Shown piece after piece: positions 13,755-22,736 of a DNA stretch of 23,403 nt (position 1 is the first letter of the stretch; each line of letters begins with the position of its first letter). The stretch spans positions 1 to 23,403 of the IMG/VR virus record IMGVR_UViG_3300050821_002774; one strand, given 5' to 3'. Source of the DNA: a virus. The notes beneath the pieces were generated by a model. The model was not told the DNA's origin and searched no databases. It was given only the letters and a program-made list of their open reading frames with translations. The position numbers were made by a program, and so were the translations under genes.

Positions 13755-14851
13755 TTCCCCTCCAATCGATCCCATTGCTTACAGTTGTCACAACGTCCTT
13801 CTCCTACGCATAGTAAGTGGTCTCTTCGGTAGGTGCGGGCTATGGCTGTGAGCTTTAGGATTTGCTCGGCCTGTTCTGCTCCGAGCGCGAGGAGGGTTTG
13901 GTTTTTATGGTTGTAGTAGGATGTTCTATCGCTGACCCACTTTTTCCCGGTGTAGCGGCCCTTCTCTACCCCATAGCAACTCTCGACGTTGAAAAGAATG
14001 TCATCACCAACGGGCGGCAACTCCTCGATCACTGAGATCCACTTCTGCTCCTCCCTGAGAGCGTTGAGGGAGGCAATTTTCTCAAGCGCATCGAGATGGC
14101 AGTCGCAGCCGAGAGCTTTCTGTAGTGACAGCCAATTATGGCGATACTGCTCACTATGCTCCCTTACCCTCGTTAGTTCTTCATCCTTGGCAGCTAGGGC
14201 GGCTTTGAACTTCTTAGTTAGATCAAGAACGGCGTCGATACTAAGTTGCCCACTCTCGGCTTCTGGGGAGACAGGCTTTACGGAATTGGCTCTGGCTTCG
14301 ATTAGCTTCTCAGTAAGCCAATCCACCAACTGGTTCTTACTGCCAATGCCTCGCGCAGTTTTGTATGCCCACCACTCGGAATAAATACTGGATGCTATGG
14401 CTTGACTCTCTTCTGGGGAGAGCACGGATGGCTTGACTTCAGGAACGGCGGCGTATTGATAATTCTTATCAAACTCTGACATTGGCCTGACAACTTTATC
14501 GTCTAGGCTCGCTACTTCAGGAACGGCGGCGAGTTTGGCGGCTGCTTTGCCTGCGTTCCAGGCTACCTGCGCGATGTGGCTCCATCTACTATGGGTCATA
14601 TTCCAAAAGTTACCGTTCCACCACTCCTCAAACTCATCACTAAGCAGCTTCTCTGCTGGGGCCAGAACTGAATCGATTTCTAATTTGAATTCGCCGCAAC
14701 GTTCACAGTAATCACCCAAAAATACATGGTGATTGACGTCACACCGAAGTGTCGTTTTCCTTAGTCTCGCCGCTTTTCCTGCTGGAGTAAGAGCATTCAT
14801 TGCGAGTTGCGCTGCGTCAGTCACTGAGGGTTCAGGATTACTTGAGTTCAT
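13751..14851 (-). CDS. DUF551-containing early protein with zinc-like ends, 366 aa
   Basis: ATG at 14851 overlaps the preceding gene by 14 bases. The N-terminal third has CDVNHH...CERCGEF (Cys37, Cys49, Cys52), a likely metal site, and two Trp-rich helices (EFEEWWNGNF and SEWWAYKTARG). The middle (210-245) is a charged coiled coil. Residues about 271-310 (WISVIEELPPVGDDILFNVE) resemble DUF551, a module common in phage proteins of unknown function. The end has CDNCKQW. An 18-bp direct repeat (14436-14453 and 14514-14531) encodes AAVPEV twice. This looks like a mosaic of small modules; biochemical role unknown. Confidence 0.75.
   Translation of the reverse strand: MNSSNPEPSVTDAAQLAMNALTPAGKAARLRKTTLRCDVNHHVFLGDYCERCGEFKLEIDSVLAPAEKLLSDEFEEWWNGNFWNMTHSRWSHIAQVAWNAGKAAAKLAAVPEVASLDDKVVRPMSEFDKNYQYAAVPEVKPSVLSPEESQAIASSIYSEWWAYKTARGIGSKNQLVDWLTEKLIEARANSVKPVSPEAESGQLSIDAVLDLTKKFKAALAAKDEELTRVREHSEQYRHNWLSLQKALGCDCHLDALEKIASLNALREEQKWISVIEELPPVGDDILFNVESCYGVEKGRYTGKKWVSDRTSYYNHKNQTLLALGAEQAEQILKLTAIARTYRRDHLLCVGEGRCDNCKQWDRLEGK
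14436..14531. repeat. 18-bp direct repeat inside the DUF551-like gene
   Basis: ACTTCAGGAACGGCGGCG occurs at 14436-14453 and 14514-14531, 78 bases (26 codons) apart and in frame, coding AAVPEV both times. The intervening residues differ, so it is either the trace of an old internal duplication or a module boundary. Confidence 0.6.
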
Positions 14852-15458
14852 AAACTTCCTCCGAAAACACTAGCTTTGGCTTGATCGCCTCTTCGTAAAT
14901 CGCCGCTCGCATCCACGAGAAACGCGCTAAGCCTGATCCATCGATAGAATCCACGCCCAATGCTTCAAAATATTCAAACCGAGCTGGCGTGTTGACCCTT
15001 CCAACGTGTACCCACTTACCGATTGCTTTAGCGGCCTTGATAACAGCCCTAGCATCTTGGCCGAGCTTCCAATCTGTGCTGCCGCCAATGAATATCGCAG
15101 CGATTTGTGCCCAAGGTATCGGCAGGTTCTCTAAACCATCCTGCGCTACGAGCGCGAGGGGCCATCCTGCGAGTTTGTAGCACCAATGGTCGAATACCTC
15201 CATCGTTCGCCTTGCGCTTGCTACAACGTCAGGAACAGCCACAAAACGGCATAGGTGGCGATCAGCGGCCTCCCTGGAAAGCAGTGACATAAAAGCGGTG
15301 GAATCGAACTTAGAGAATGCCCCGTTGTCGATGCAGAAGTGGGCATATTTACGCTGACGCTTGAACCGAGTCAGCGGCGTAAGCAATTGCTCGACTGAGC
15401 AACCGATCTCCTTTTCGCACACCGCTAAATCTTCAGAAGTATCGAGCATCGCAATCAC
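14838..15458 (-). CDS. tRNA-guanine-transglycosylase-like (DpdA-like) protein, 206 aa
   Basis: GTG at 15458 with GAGG upstream. Several segments look like shortened versions of TGT/DpdA-family barrel motifs: CIDNGAFS (Asp44), FVAVPDVV (Asp77), ALVAQDG (Gln106), FIGGSTDWKLG (125-133), WVHVGRVNT (149-157) and GVDSIDGSGLARF (168-180). The last compares with the catalytic-aspartate strand of TGT enzymes (GvD.fDcv.pTR). These enzymes exchange guanine for 7-deazaguanine bases in tRNA, or in DNA for DpdA. At 206 residues it is much shorter than TGT (about 375), with no zinc-binding C-terminus. It lies next to a DNA methyltransferase, so DNA modification is a reasonable guess. No deazaguanine synthesis gene is in the window. 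Confidence 0.55.
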   Translation of the reverse strand: MIAMLDTSEDLAVCEKEIGCSVEQLLTPLTRFKRQRKYAHFCIDNGAFSKFDSTAFMSLLSREAADRHLCRFVAVPDVVASARRTMEVFDHWCYKLAGWPLALVAQDGLENLPIPWAQIAAIFIGGSTDWKLGQDARAVIKAAKAIGKWVHVGRVNTPARFEYFEALGVDSIDGSGLARFSWMRAAIYEEAIKPKLVFSEEVYELK

Positions 15459-15488: not shown

Positions 15489-16280
15489 TTAGTCATCAGT
15501 TGCCTCCAAAGCTTGCTTTATGCGTCTTGCTATCATCTCGGGTATCTGAGGGACTACTGCATTGCCTAGTCCTCTAAGGCGGTCCACCTGGCCGGGAACT
15601 TCATCAACCAGCAAACAAACTCCGTGTTTAGTAGCGCGTCGGGTGCCGTCGGCCCCAACCATGATCGTGCGGCCTGACTCAACCGAATCTGAGACTGAGT
15701 TCCTTGCGAGTTGATGTGCCGTAACGTCCCAGATTTCGTTATGTGTGGGCGCGTTGGCGGTTGCCTGATCGATTTGTCGTCCGCATTGGGGGTAGGCCAG
15801 AATCCAAACCCGTTCGCGGATGTGATCGGCACCAATGTCGGCCGCAGATACAATCTGCCACTCCGCGTCATACCCGAGGGAGGAAAGATCGCCAAGGACG
15901 TCTCCCATTCCGGAAGAAAGGAGCCCTGGCACGTTTTCCACGAGCACGAATTTGGGTCGTAATTCGCGAATAACACGTGCGAAGTCTGGCCACATCCAAC
16001 GCTCATCTGACTGGGCGAGACGACTGCCGGCGAGGGATACGGGTTGGCATGGAAAGCCTCCGCAGATGACGTCAACTGGCTTGAGGTTGTGACTGCCGCA
16101 CTCTCTGATGTCTCCAAAGCGTTCTGCCTCCGGGAAATTCTTTGCTAAAACCTTCTGGCAATAAGGGTCAATTTCTACCTGCCAAACTGTCTTGAAACCT
16201 GCTCTTTCAAATCCAAGATCGAAACCACCTATCCCGGCGAAGAGAGAGCCCATTGTCGGGAGTCGTCCCGCATTAGTCAT
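15489..16280 (-). CDS. dcm: DNA (cytosine-5) methyltransferase
   Basis: A compact 263-residue enzyme that methylates cytosine C5 using S-adenosylmethionine. Motifs in order: I, LFAGIGGFDLGFERAG (13-28); IV, VDVICGGFPCQPVSLAG (69-85) with catalytic Cys78; VI, VLVENVPG (112-119); VIII, IRERVWILAYP (154-164); IX/X, VDRLRGLGNAVVPQIPEMIA (232-251). The target-recognition region (about 165-228) is only some 60 residues, so specificity cannot be read. No restriction enzyme gene is adjacent, so this is probably an orphan anti-restriction or regulatory methylase. ATG at 16280 overlaps the preceding stop (ATGA). A long +1-frame ORF is nested inside it. Confidence 0.95.
   Translation of the reverse strand: MTNAGRLPTMGSLFAGIGGFDLGFERAGFKTVWQVEIDPYCQKVLAKNFPEAERFGDIRECGSHNLKPVDVICGGFPCQPVSLAGSRLAQSDERWMWPDFARVIRELRPKFVLVENVPGLLSSGMGDVLGDLSSLGYDAEWQIVSAADIGADHIRERVWILAYPQCGRQIDQATANAPTHNEIWDVTAHQLARNSVSDSVESGRTIMVGADGTRRATKHGVCLLVDEVPGQVDRLRGLGNAVVPQIPEMIARRIKQALEATDD
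15566..16117 (-). CDS. Nested +1-frame ORF inside the methyltransferase gene, 183 codons
   Basis: Same strand as dcm, shifted by one base, open without a stop over dcm codons about 55-238. The product has the hallmarks of a protein family I know as uncharacterised phage and metagenome entries: SCSWKTCQGSFLPEWETS, then IFPPSGMTRSGRLYLRPTL, then GFGFWPTPNADD, then a terminal LLNTEFVCWLMKFPARWTAL. These align base for base with dcm motifs: the WPTPNADD segment is the shifted reading of the AYPQCG strand, and the FPPSGM segment that of VLGDLSSLGYD. The first start is TTG at 16117, with no ribosome binding site seen. It may be a real overprinted gene or only a constrained shadow; sequence alone cannot decide. 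Confidence 0.4.
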   Translation of the reverse strand: METSESAAVTTSSQLTSSAEAFHANPYPSPAVVSPSQMSVGCGQTSHVLFANYDPNSCSWKTCQGSFLPEWETSLAIFPPSGMTRSGRLYLRPTLVPITSANGFGFWPTPNADDKSIRQPPTRPHITKSGTLRHINSQGTQSQIRLSQAARSWLGPTAPDALLNTEFVCWLMKFPARWTALED

Positions 16281-16426: not shown

Positions 16427-16652
16427 GAGGTGCCTCCGTTTTCGACCAGGATTCGATTGTTTGGCCGAGAAGTATGGAAGCGCAGCCCTGACCGCAAATA
16501 TGCTTCATGTAGCCATCGTTCAGCTCGTCATCCCATCGATAAAATAGCGCGGATGATTCCTCGGTGGTTCCATGAATATCCGCCAGTAACCAGTGATTGC
16601 TTGGCCCTCTCCCTACTCCGCATACATCGCATTTGTAAGCTTCGATCTTCAT
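16401..16652 (-). CDS. Small zinc-binding-type protein, 83 aa
   Basis: ATG at 16652 has GGAGG four bases upstream and overlaps the preceding stop (ATGA). Cys8-x2-Cys11 near the N-terminus (CDVCG) and Cys53-x3-Cys57 (HICGQGC) could form one zinc site bridging the chain. The centre has acidic and aromatic residues (FYRWDDELNDGY). Unknown function; it resembles small phage proteins that bring partners together or bind nucleic acid, but that is an impression. Confidence 0.66.
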   Translation of the reverse strand: MKIEAYKCDVCGVGRGPSNHWLLADIHGTTEESSALFYRWDDELNDGYMKHICGQGCASILLGQTIESWSKTEAPHETQPLQP

Positions 16653-17056
16653 ACCGCCTCCGATTTCAGCTTCTGCCTCAGCGTGTCAACGTTCTTCTTG
16701 AAGCCTTGGGTATTCCAGTAACGTTGCTTAGCCACTCGCTCAGCGTTAAGGATGGTGGTGTGATGGCGGCCGAGGAACTTGCCTATCTCCGGCGAGCTAA
16801 ACTCTGCGCGAAGCATGAGGACAATGATTTGCCGAACGATGGTGGATTTGCGATCGGCTGCGCCAGCTAGAACGGCCTTAGGTGAAAGCCCATAGAGTTG
16901 GCATGAGAGGGTGACGACATCGCGTACTCGTTTCGGTATTCCCGTAAATCGTCCGTCAGCGGTGACTTGAGCTGGCGGTTTAGTTCGCTGCTTTTGCTCA
17001 CGCCGGAATTCTTCGATCCCCTTCAGCATCAGTTCTTCGTTGTAGGAGTAATTCAT
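16649..17056 (-). CDS. DnaA C-terminal-domain-like protein, 135 aa
   Basis: Residues about 43-130 match the DNA-binding domain IV of the replication initiator DnaA: VRDVVTLSCQLYGLSPKAVL, then RKSTIVRQIIVLMLRAEFS, then SSPEIGKFLGRHHTTILNAE. The last is the helix-turn-helix and the DnaA signature (G-R-x-H-T-T), which reads the DnaA box. There is no AAA+ ATPase part, so it cannot load a helicase alone. It may direct host machinery to the phage origin, compete with host DnaA, or act as a regulator. It lies beside RusA and the replication-type chimera. ATG at 17056 overlaps the preceding stop. Confidence 0.78.
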   Translation of the reverse strand: MNYSYNEELMLKGIEEFRREQKQRTKPPAQVTADGRFTGIPKRVRDVVTLSCQLYGLSPKAVLAGAADRKSTIVRQIIVLMLRAEFSSPEIGKFLGRHHTTILNAERVAKQRYWNTQGFKKNVDTLRQKLKSEAV

Positions 17057-21935: not shown

Positions 21936-22147
21936 TTCGCCTCCCTGAAAGCCTGATCAAGAAATTCCTTAGCGCAGAAGAGGTTTCTATCTACCCTGTC
22001 TCCAAGGTTGTCGCGCAATAAGCTGTCAACCAAACCACTGATAGCCCGTATCTCTTCAATAGCGCGGGCATTTCTGATTTCCGAATTGGAAAGCTCTACT
22101 CTTACTGAGCGTCCGCAGTCCTGAGCTGTTTGCTGGAGATTAGTCAT
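21932..22147 (-). CDS. Small hypothetical helical protein, 71 aa
   Basis: ATG at 22147 overlaps the preceding gene by 8 bases. The product begins MTNLQQTAQDCGRSVRVELS and continues as charged helices (IRNARAIEEIRAISGLVDSL). No known motif. Tightly coupled to both neighbours in the early block. Confidence 0.64.
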   Translation of the reverse strand: MTNLQQTAQDCGRSVRVELSNSEIRNARAIEEIRAISGLVDSLLRDNLGDRVDRNLFCAKEFLDQAFREAK

Positions 22148-22736
22148 TCTTCACCGCCTCATATTGCTTAGCGAGTGCCGCCAAGTGTGCGATGTGGAGT
22201 CCGTACTCATCTATCTGTTCTTTGGTATAGCCTTCAGATCGGCCAATGGCCTTATACCTCTCCAGCCATTCCGCGATGTCGTGCACATGACATCCAATAG
22301 CGATTTGCGTATGAGAGCAAAGCGTCAACGCGTGGCGGGTACCCTGAATATAGGGGGGCGATTTTTCCCAAGCATCGCCAGAGACCAGAGCATCGCCATA
22401 GACCCAAGCATCGCCATAGACCCGAGCATCGCCATAGACCCAAGCATCGCCATAGACCCAAGCATCGCCAGAGACCCGAGCATTGCCAGAGACCAGAGCA
22501 TTGCCATAGACCCGAGCATTGCCATAGACCCGAGCATTGCCATAGACCCAAGCATTGCCATAGACCCAAGCATTGCCATAGACGATTGAGGTTGGATGGA
22601 GATAGGCCGATTCGTCTACATGGGCGGTCTTGTAAACCCAGCCAAGGCCATTTGGGTGCTGGTGCCAGTCTTCTGGGACTGATCCGTAAACGCTGTCCAG
22701 GACACGCTGGGTAACTTGAATAGTCTCAATGGCCAC
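22140..22736 (-). CDS. Hexapeptide-repeat (left-handed beta-helix) protein, 198 aa
   Basis: GTG at 22736 overlaps the preceding gene by 11 bases. An N-terminal domain with TQRVLDSVYGS and DWHQHPNGLGWVYKTAHVDE precedes twelve six-residue repeats (residues 52-123) of the form V-Y/S-G-N/D-A-W/R/L. Such a period builds a left-handed triangular beta-helix, here four turns. A C-terminal helical domain (CHVHDIAEWLERYKAIGRSE) follows. Similar repeats occur in acyltransferase-like and carbonic-anhydrase-like proteins, but I see no catalytic histidine set of those enzymes, and phages carry related proteins of unknown role. The first six repeats use Asn (GNA), the last six Asp (GDA). Confidence 0.8.
   Translation of the reverse strand: MAIETIQVTQRVLDSVYGSVPEDWHQHPNGLGWVYKTAHVDESAYLHPTSIVYGNAWVYGNAWVYGNARVYGNARVYGNALVSGNARVSGDAWVYGDAWVYGDARVYGDAWVYGDALVSGDAWEKSPPYIQGTRHALTLCSHTQIAIGCHVHDIAEWLERYKAIGRSEGYTKEQIDEYGLHIAHLAALAKQYEAVKND
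22368..22583. repeat. Twelve 18-bp tandem repeats in the beta-helix gene
   Basis: Unit on the plus strand is roughly GCATCGCCATAGACCCAA, twelve copies. The six copies nearest the gene start carry CATTGCC (Asn) and the other six CATCGCC (Asp). Units 5 and 6 of each half share the L and VS variants, which suggests a 108-bp block was duplicated after single-unit growth. The array leaves other frames open too, giving spurious ORFs. Confidence 0.9.

Follow-up and report, generated by a model that had tools for sequence, protein, structure and literature searches.

A second gene very probably hidden in the +1 frame of a viral C5-cytosine DNA methyltransferase gene

Inside a viral gene for a C5-cytosine DNA methyltransferase, the open +1 frame is very probably a genuine gene in its own right; many phages and bacteria have the same concealed arrangement. 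The window, which is the whole stretch of viral DNA analysed here (23,403 nucleotides, IMG/VR record IMGVR_UViG_3300050821_002774), contains the methyltransferase ORF, alpha, and a second ORF nested in it, beta. We argue that a single C5-cytosine methyltransferase is made here from two polypeptides encoded in overlapping frames, of the M.EcoHK31I kind, and we put the probability of this reading at about 0.86. Motif IX is absent from alpha. The +1 frame is open from the beta start onwards, beta is constrained at the level of its protein, each segment of the overlap has its own protected frame, and the start with its Shine-Dalgarno site is conserved. Beta would be expressed, bind to alpha and set the target sequence of the enzyme.

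Layout of the methyltransferase locus

Alpha (P0002) is an ORF of 263 residues on the minus strand, at 15489–16280. Profile searches match it to PF00145 (E = 1.3e-49) and TIGR00675 (E = 1.1e-41), and it has the catalytic domain with the PCQ and ENV motifs of the PF00145 C5-methyltransferases. Motifs I–VIII fall within residues 9–164 (15789–16256, minus strand; PF00145 profile positions 3–165) and align with canonical dcm with an hhalign E-value of 5e-30. Motif X (DRLRGLGNAVVPQIPEMIARRI; 15495–15584, minus strand) is also in the alpha frame, is conserved in A2 and has a ratio of third- to first-position substitutions of about 2. In the AlphaFold model of alpha, pLDDT is mostly above 90 in the catalytic core and the motif X helix is confident, while residues 169–237 between motifs VIII and X (15570–15776, minus strand) are mostly below 50 and are predicted to be disordered. 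A Foldseek comparison of the model with M.HhaI gave an E-value of 2e-17 over 165 columns.

Beta (P0001; 183 residues, 15566–16117, minus strand) is entirely within the alpha gene, begins with TTG and ends with LLNTEFVCWLMKFPARWTALED. The first position of a beta codon is the second position of a dcm codon. Each dcm third position is therefore a second position in beta, which makes the overlap highly testable. The N-terminal conserved domain of beta, approximately residues 44–107 (YDPNSCSWKTCQ...PPSGM...; 15797–15988, minus strand), is overprinted on motifs V–VIII of alpha. It is followed by the target-recognition region (residues 107–161; 15635–15799, minus strand), which begins with WPTP, and by the putative motif IX (LLNTEFVCWLMKFPARWTAL; 15575–15634, minus strand). 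The family consensus of this motif is LNPxWVEWLMGFPxGWTDL, from which the window's own version (LNTEFVCWLMKFPARW) deviates.

The initial annotation had drawn attention to this 183-codon ORF, and we find it at the stated coordinates, but on the minus strand, with a TTG start. It had assigned several named segments to shifted readings of dcm motifs IV, VI and VIII, and these assignments are correct to a few codons. What it missed is the function: motif IX and the target-recognition region, both absent from the dcm frame, are in the nested frame.

We propose that alpha, read in frame 0, would provide the catalytic large domain with motifs I–VIII and, through its disordered linker, motif X at the far end. 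Beta would be translated one base out of phase from its own start, the TTG at 16117 behind a GGAGG, and would supply the target-recognition region and motif IX, that is, the small domain missing from alpha. By analogy with M.EcoHK31I, the two polypeptides would assemble into one active enzyme.

Genes of phage recombination and replication surround the locus (Erf, YqaJ exonuclease, RusA), and a terminase is found at a greater distance. The next gene downstream (14838–15458, minus strand, 206 residues) matches phrog_15826 of unknown function (E = 9e-41) and has no match in Pfam. Upstream of the methyltransferase, 16649–17056 on the minus strand encodes a small protein with a DnaA C-terminal DNA-binding domain (PF08299), and 22140–22736, also on the minus strand, encodes a 198-residue protein with YdcK beta-solenoid repeats (PF18836). 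Among the neighbouring genes examined we saw no restriction gene, and the enzyme is probably an orphan modification enzyme that perhaps shields the phage DNA from host restriction.

Start of beta and identity of motif IX

A Shine-Dalgarno-like GGAGG (16127–16131, minus strand) is located 9 nt before the TTG of beta, inside the alpha codons for FPEAER. At the alignment column of this TTG, other loci have ATG or TTG with GGAGG, GAGG or AAGG. A start codon combined with such a site was found at the column in 24 of 65 loci, compared with 6.9 expected and a maximum of 13 in 300 shuffles. Start codons alone were not significantly enriched (39 observed, 31 expected, shuffle maximum 42), and 26 of the 65 loci have none at this column, so the start of beta must vary.

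In a second subfamily alpha and beta share one ribosome-binding site; it is followed by ATGAATG or GTGAATG, in which the two starts are 4 nt apart, so that almost the whole gene would be read twice. Its members are Salmonella phage S9-5, Klebsiella phage BUCT711, Pseudomonas phage phPA-G, Vibrio phage ZQ26 and approximately 15 further loci, nearly all bacterial. The gene annotated in phPA-G, named 'hypothetical protein', has the beta start as its first codon, which fits the remark in the initial annotation that similar proteins are uncharacterised database entries. In L213 (PP083311.1, 23175–23903) a 'hypothetical protein' begins at the beta start and alpha, 4 nt earlier, is unannotated; in L211 (OM816836.1) the 'DNA cytosine methyltransferase' is annotated from 962, not from about 797, and the listed protein lacks its N-terminus.

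The distribution of motifs differs among relatives. Matches were found in 29 of 101 genomes related to a Micromonospora genome, and in most of the loci fetched from them alpha ends after motif VIII and beta carries the recognition region together with motifs IX and X; motifs IX and X are likewise on beta in L010 and L095. In these split relatives one +1 shift downstream of motif VIII would produce the complete canonical order of motifs I–VIII, recognition region, IX and X, as expected if programmed +1 frameshifting fused the beta recognition region and motif IX to alpha in one chain. We consider such frameshifting very unlikely, as the +1 frame is open and conserved through motifs V–VIII, upstream of the shift (3 stops versus 182 expected; 35 of 37 loci, see below). 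In addition, pairs of start codon and Shine-Dalgarno site are conserved, the tandem ATGAATG type of start needs no shift, and in the nested type the shifted chain would lack motif X.

When the beta string LNPxWVEWLMGFP is compared with canonical motif IX (LTPRECARLMGFP), the alignment has E = 0.014, a match that is weak by itself. Stronger support for its identity comes from loci in which a string of this kind shares one chain with motif X, in the alpha frame in L177 and L186 and in the beta frame in L010 and L095. In L177 and L186, where motifs IX and X are both in alpha, the recognition cassettes are still open in the +1 frame; the frame boundary has moved. It is conceivable that beta, though truly an overprinted protein, serves in a different role, for instance as a regulator or an unrelated anti-restriction factor, since it has no Pfam family and no direct structural match: modelled alone with AF2 it gave a poor model (pLDDT 66) for which the PDB holds no structure match, and a search of PDB sequences with the beta profile also found none. 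Such a role is very unlikely, because what alpha lacks is precisely the motif IX-like C-terminus of beta, the same string is joined to motif X in the four loci named above, and beta accompanies alpha in essentially all sampled loci. Judging by profile matches, phrog_1008 and phrog_26627 appear to be the family of this +1-frame partner. The former matches the window beta (E = 7e-20) and 47 of 47 beta sequences tested; the latter, of unknown function, matches 35 of 47 and in the window lies at the motif IX end. The label 'DNA methyltransferase' of phrog_1008 conceals that it would be the +1-frame partner and not the catalytic chain.

Selection on the two overlapping frames

We collected relatives from IMG/VR in two separate searches, one with P0001 (L002–L014) and one with the dcm protein alone (L015–L094). 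In virtually every locus fetched, the nested protein matches in the same register. The +1 open frames of the relatives are mostly 170–380 codons long and usually end with LNPxWVEWLMGFPxGWTDL or a close variant. To obtain expected values, synonymous codons were permuted within each gene, which keeps both the protein and the codon usage. Across 73 non-redundant loci, 63 of which had been fetched with the alpha protein only and not with beta, the +1 frame contains 6 stops where 294 are expected (200 shuffles, minimum 266). The +2 frame of the same loci shows no deficit (659 versus 664 expected). For the window gene alone, the 183 codons were free of stops in 18 of 20,000 permutations (P = 9e-4).

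The depletion depends on the position along the gene. Before the predicted beta start there is none (134 +1 stops observed, 106 expected). Counts fall to 19 versus 65 from the beta start to motif IV, to 3 versus 182 from motif IV+20 to motif VIII, and to 0 versus 104 from motif VIII to motif X. Canonical dcm genes in the same bacterial genomes show no depletion (91 +1 stops, 98 expected), while the nested-type dcm genes in bacterial genomes have 1 stop where 27 are expected. When the codons of the nested frame were permuted instead, approximately 337 stops were expected in alpha after motif VIII and none was seen, a count that is partly built in because alpha was defined as an open frame.

The sequence of the +1 protein is constrained as well. 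Scored against a profile built from the other loci, it exceeded every one of 100 shuffles in 38 of 38 test loci, and the window score was 200.8 bits, compared with 96.0 ± 11.9 for the shuffles (z = 8.8). As the shuffled genes still give about half of the score, a translation shadow of dcm does exist, and the remainder represents constraint. The N-terminal domain of beta, taken alone, exceeded all 100 shuffles in 35 of 37 loci (99 versus 45 bits in the window). The alternative frame is under selection beyond that of the primary frame.

Substitutions between close relatives reveal which frame is protected. We aligned 28 independent close pairs by way of the alpha protein and 26 pairs as nucleotides without a codon model. 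In both sets the differences track the dcm third position in motifs I–VIII and X. In the nucleotide alignments of the 26 pairs, the differences at dcm positions 1, 2 and 3 were 0.09, 0.04 and 0.21 in motifs IV–VIII and 0.115, 0.046 and 0.242 in motif X. Between motifs VIII and IX, and in motif IX itself, differences track dcm position 1, which is the wobble position of the nested frame: the values were 0.264, 0.080 and 0.061 in the recognition region and 0.136, 0.046 and 0.048 in motif IX. In this stretch the shift was in the same direction in 23 pairs and reversed in 0. Over alpha residues 169–237, alpha third positions are nearly frozen while beta wobble positions are free. Since the differences follow the nested wobble position, it is the nested frame that codes for the recognition region and motif IX, and these alpha residues are apparently merely kept open. 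Selection protects the dcm frame in motifs I–VIII and X and the +1 frame in the recognition region and motif IX.

The recognition region of the relatives is modular and is made up of 1–7 PTP cassettes of roughly 25–50 residues each. Fifty-six pairs of cassettes are more than 70% identical between loci, and 32 of these pairs are at different positions. Arrays of up to seven PTP-started cassettes are seen in the beta frames of L070, L071, L077, L080, L086, L046 and L052, and near-identical cassettes are located at different positions in different phages.

In loci fetched with the motif IX string from bacteria and archaea, alpha is in the expected register in 76 of 80; in L139 there is a shift inside alpha. 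An Actinomycetota MAG (L168) has the nested pair and, just downstream, a second, free-standing beta (L168:3835–4560), whose alpha frame lacks motifs I–IV and is decayed (ENV to ENG, LGNA to LGDA). It is possibly an extra specificity subunit. A search of plasmids with P0001 matched only dcm genes. In Mycobacterium phage Jinglebell (L099) a frame shift after motif VI breaks both frames, and annotators call minus-strand ORFs there; in the group of Llama and Ochi17 the matches are likewise in two pieces. The culturable Mycobacterium phage SG4, a phage of M. smegmatis, has the alpha–beta pair. L239 and L243 were considered as single-chain fusions and rejected, as their alpha frames are broken by a shift.

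The initial annotation had left undecided whether the nested frame is an overprinted gene or largely a shadow, and the former is what stands. Stops are depleted in the +1 frame only, constraint exceeds the shadow in 38 of 38 loci, and the recognition region and motif IX evolve as +1 coding sequence; of the shadow, about half of the similarity score survives. Among the signs it had named in favour of a shadow, a lack of excess +1 constraint and frequent +1 stops in homologues are contradicted by these counts (38 of 38 test loci; 6 versus 294 stops in 73 loci). The third, that all matches would map to shifted dcm sequence, is nearly true, with L168 as one exception among 80 bacterial loci; near-total mapping of this kind is to be expected of a partner subunit that shares its DNA with dcm. 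That dcm conservation and codon bias merely mimic a +1 family, with no second protein, is an extremely improbable full explanation, which the shuffled score of approximately 100 bits and the confinement of almost all database matches to dcm genes favour and which we reject on the codon permutations that never reached the observed score in 38 loci, the roughly 50-fold shortage of stops, which is confined to the +1 frame downstream of the beta start, the canonical dcm genes without depletion, the evolution of the recognition region in the beta frame and the one free-standing beta.

Comparison with known methyltransferases

We lean towards a broader view in which 'dcm' genes of a widespread class, in phages and bacteria, conceal in their +1 frame a recognition subunit with exchangeable cassettes, so that specificity would evolve by module shuffling there while the dcm frame serves as a passive open linker. 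If this is true, many 'complete' cytosine methyltransferase annotations describe half an enzyme, with the half that chooses the target unannotated or filed separately. Such annotated genes should fail when expressed alone, and specificity predictions from the annotated protein are read from the wrong frame. The class would also offer a large, natural and testable collection of long overlapping genes, with selection changing frame from segment to segment of one gene.

Multispecific C5 methyltransferases of Bacillus phages carry exchangeable target-recognition domains. The relatives of beta resemble them in having 1–7 PTP cassettes that are common to several loci at differing positions; unlike in those enzymes, the cassettes are in an overprinted frame, and multispecificity is only a possibility here. 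Alpha is clearly homologous over motifs I–VIII to the canonical single-chain enzymes M.HhaI, M.HaeIII and Dcm. In these, one frame also encodes the recognition region and motif IX, and the +1 frame of canonical dcm genes is not kept open.

In M.EcoHK31I, beta is nested in alpha in another frame and has about 176 residues. This enzyme is a two-polypeptide C5 methyltransferase with the target YGGCCR (Lee, Kam and Shaw 1995, cited in PMC3404938); as PMC3404938 describes it, alpha has motifs I–VIII and X, and motif IX alone is on the small polypeptide. The window locus shares this anatomy, which is compared here as described and not by sequence: motifs I–VIII and X without IX are on the large subunit, the motif IX candidate (weak by its profile match alone, E = 0.014) is on the second polypeptide, and the small subunit is encoded inside the large-subunit gene in the other frame. 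It differs from M.EcoHK31I in that no linked restriction gene was seen among the window neighbours examined. It also differs in the recognition domain, which a prediction in PMC3404938, not a proven definition, places in the large subunit. In the window the region between motifs VIII and IX is protected in the beta frame, and alpha is disordered there.

M.AquI, with the target CYCGRG, is another naturally split C5 methyltransferase of two polypeptides (cited in PMC3404938). Relatives from actinobacteria and Streptomyces phages that have motifs IX and X on beta resemble it. The window locus differs, with motif X retained in alpha and beta nested throughout. In the literature searched, the EcoHK31I enzyme is named in passing or used for engineering, and a broad nested class is not described. 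The nested two-subunit kind is already known; its breadth, the recognition region in beta and the modularity of that region look new.
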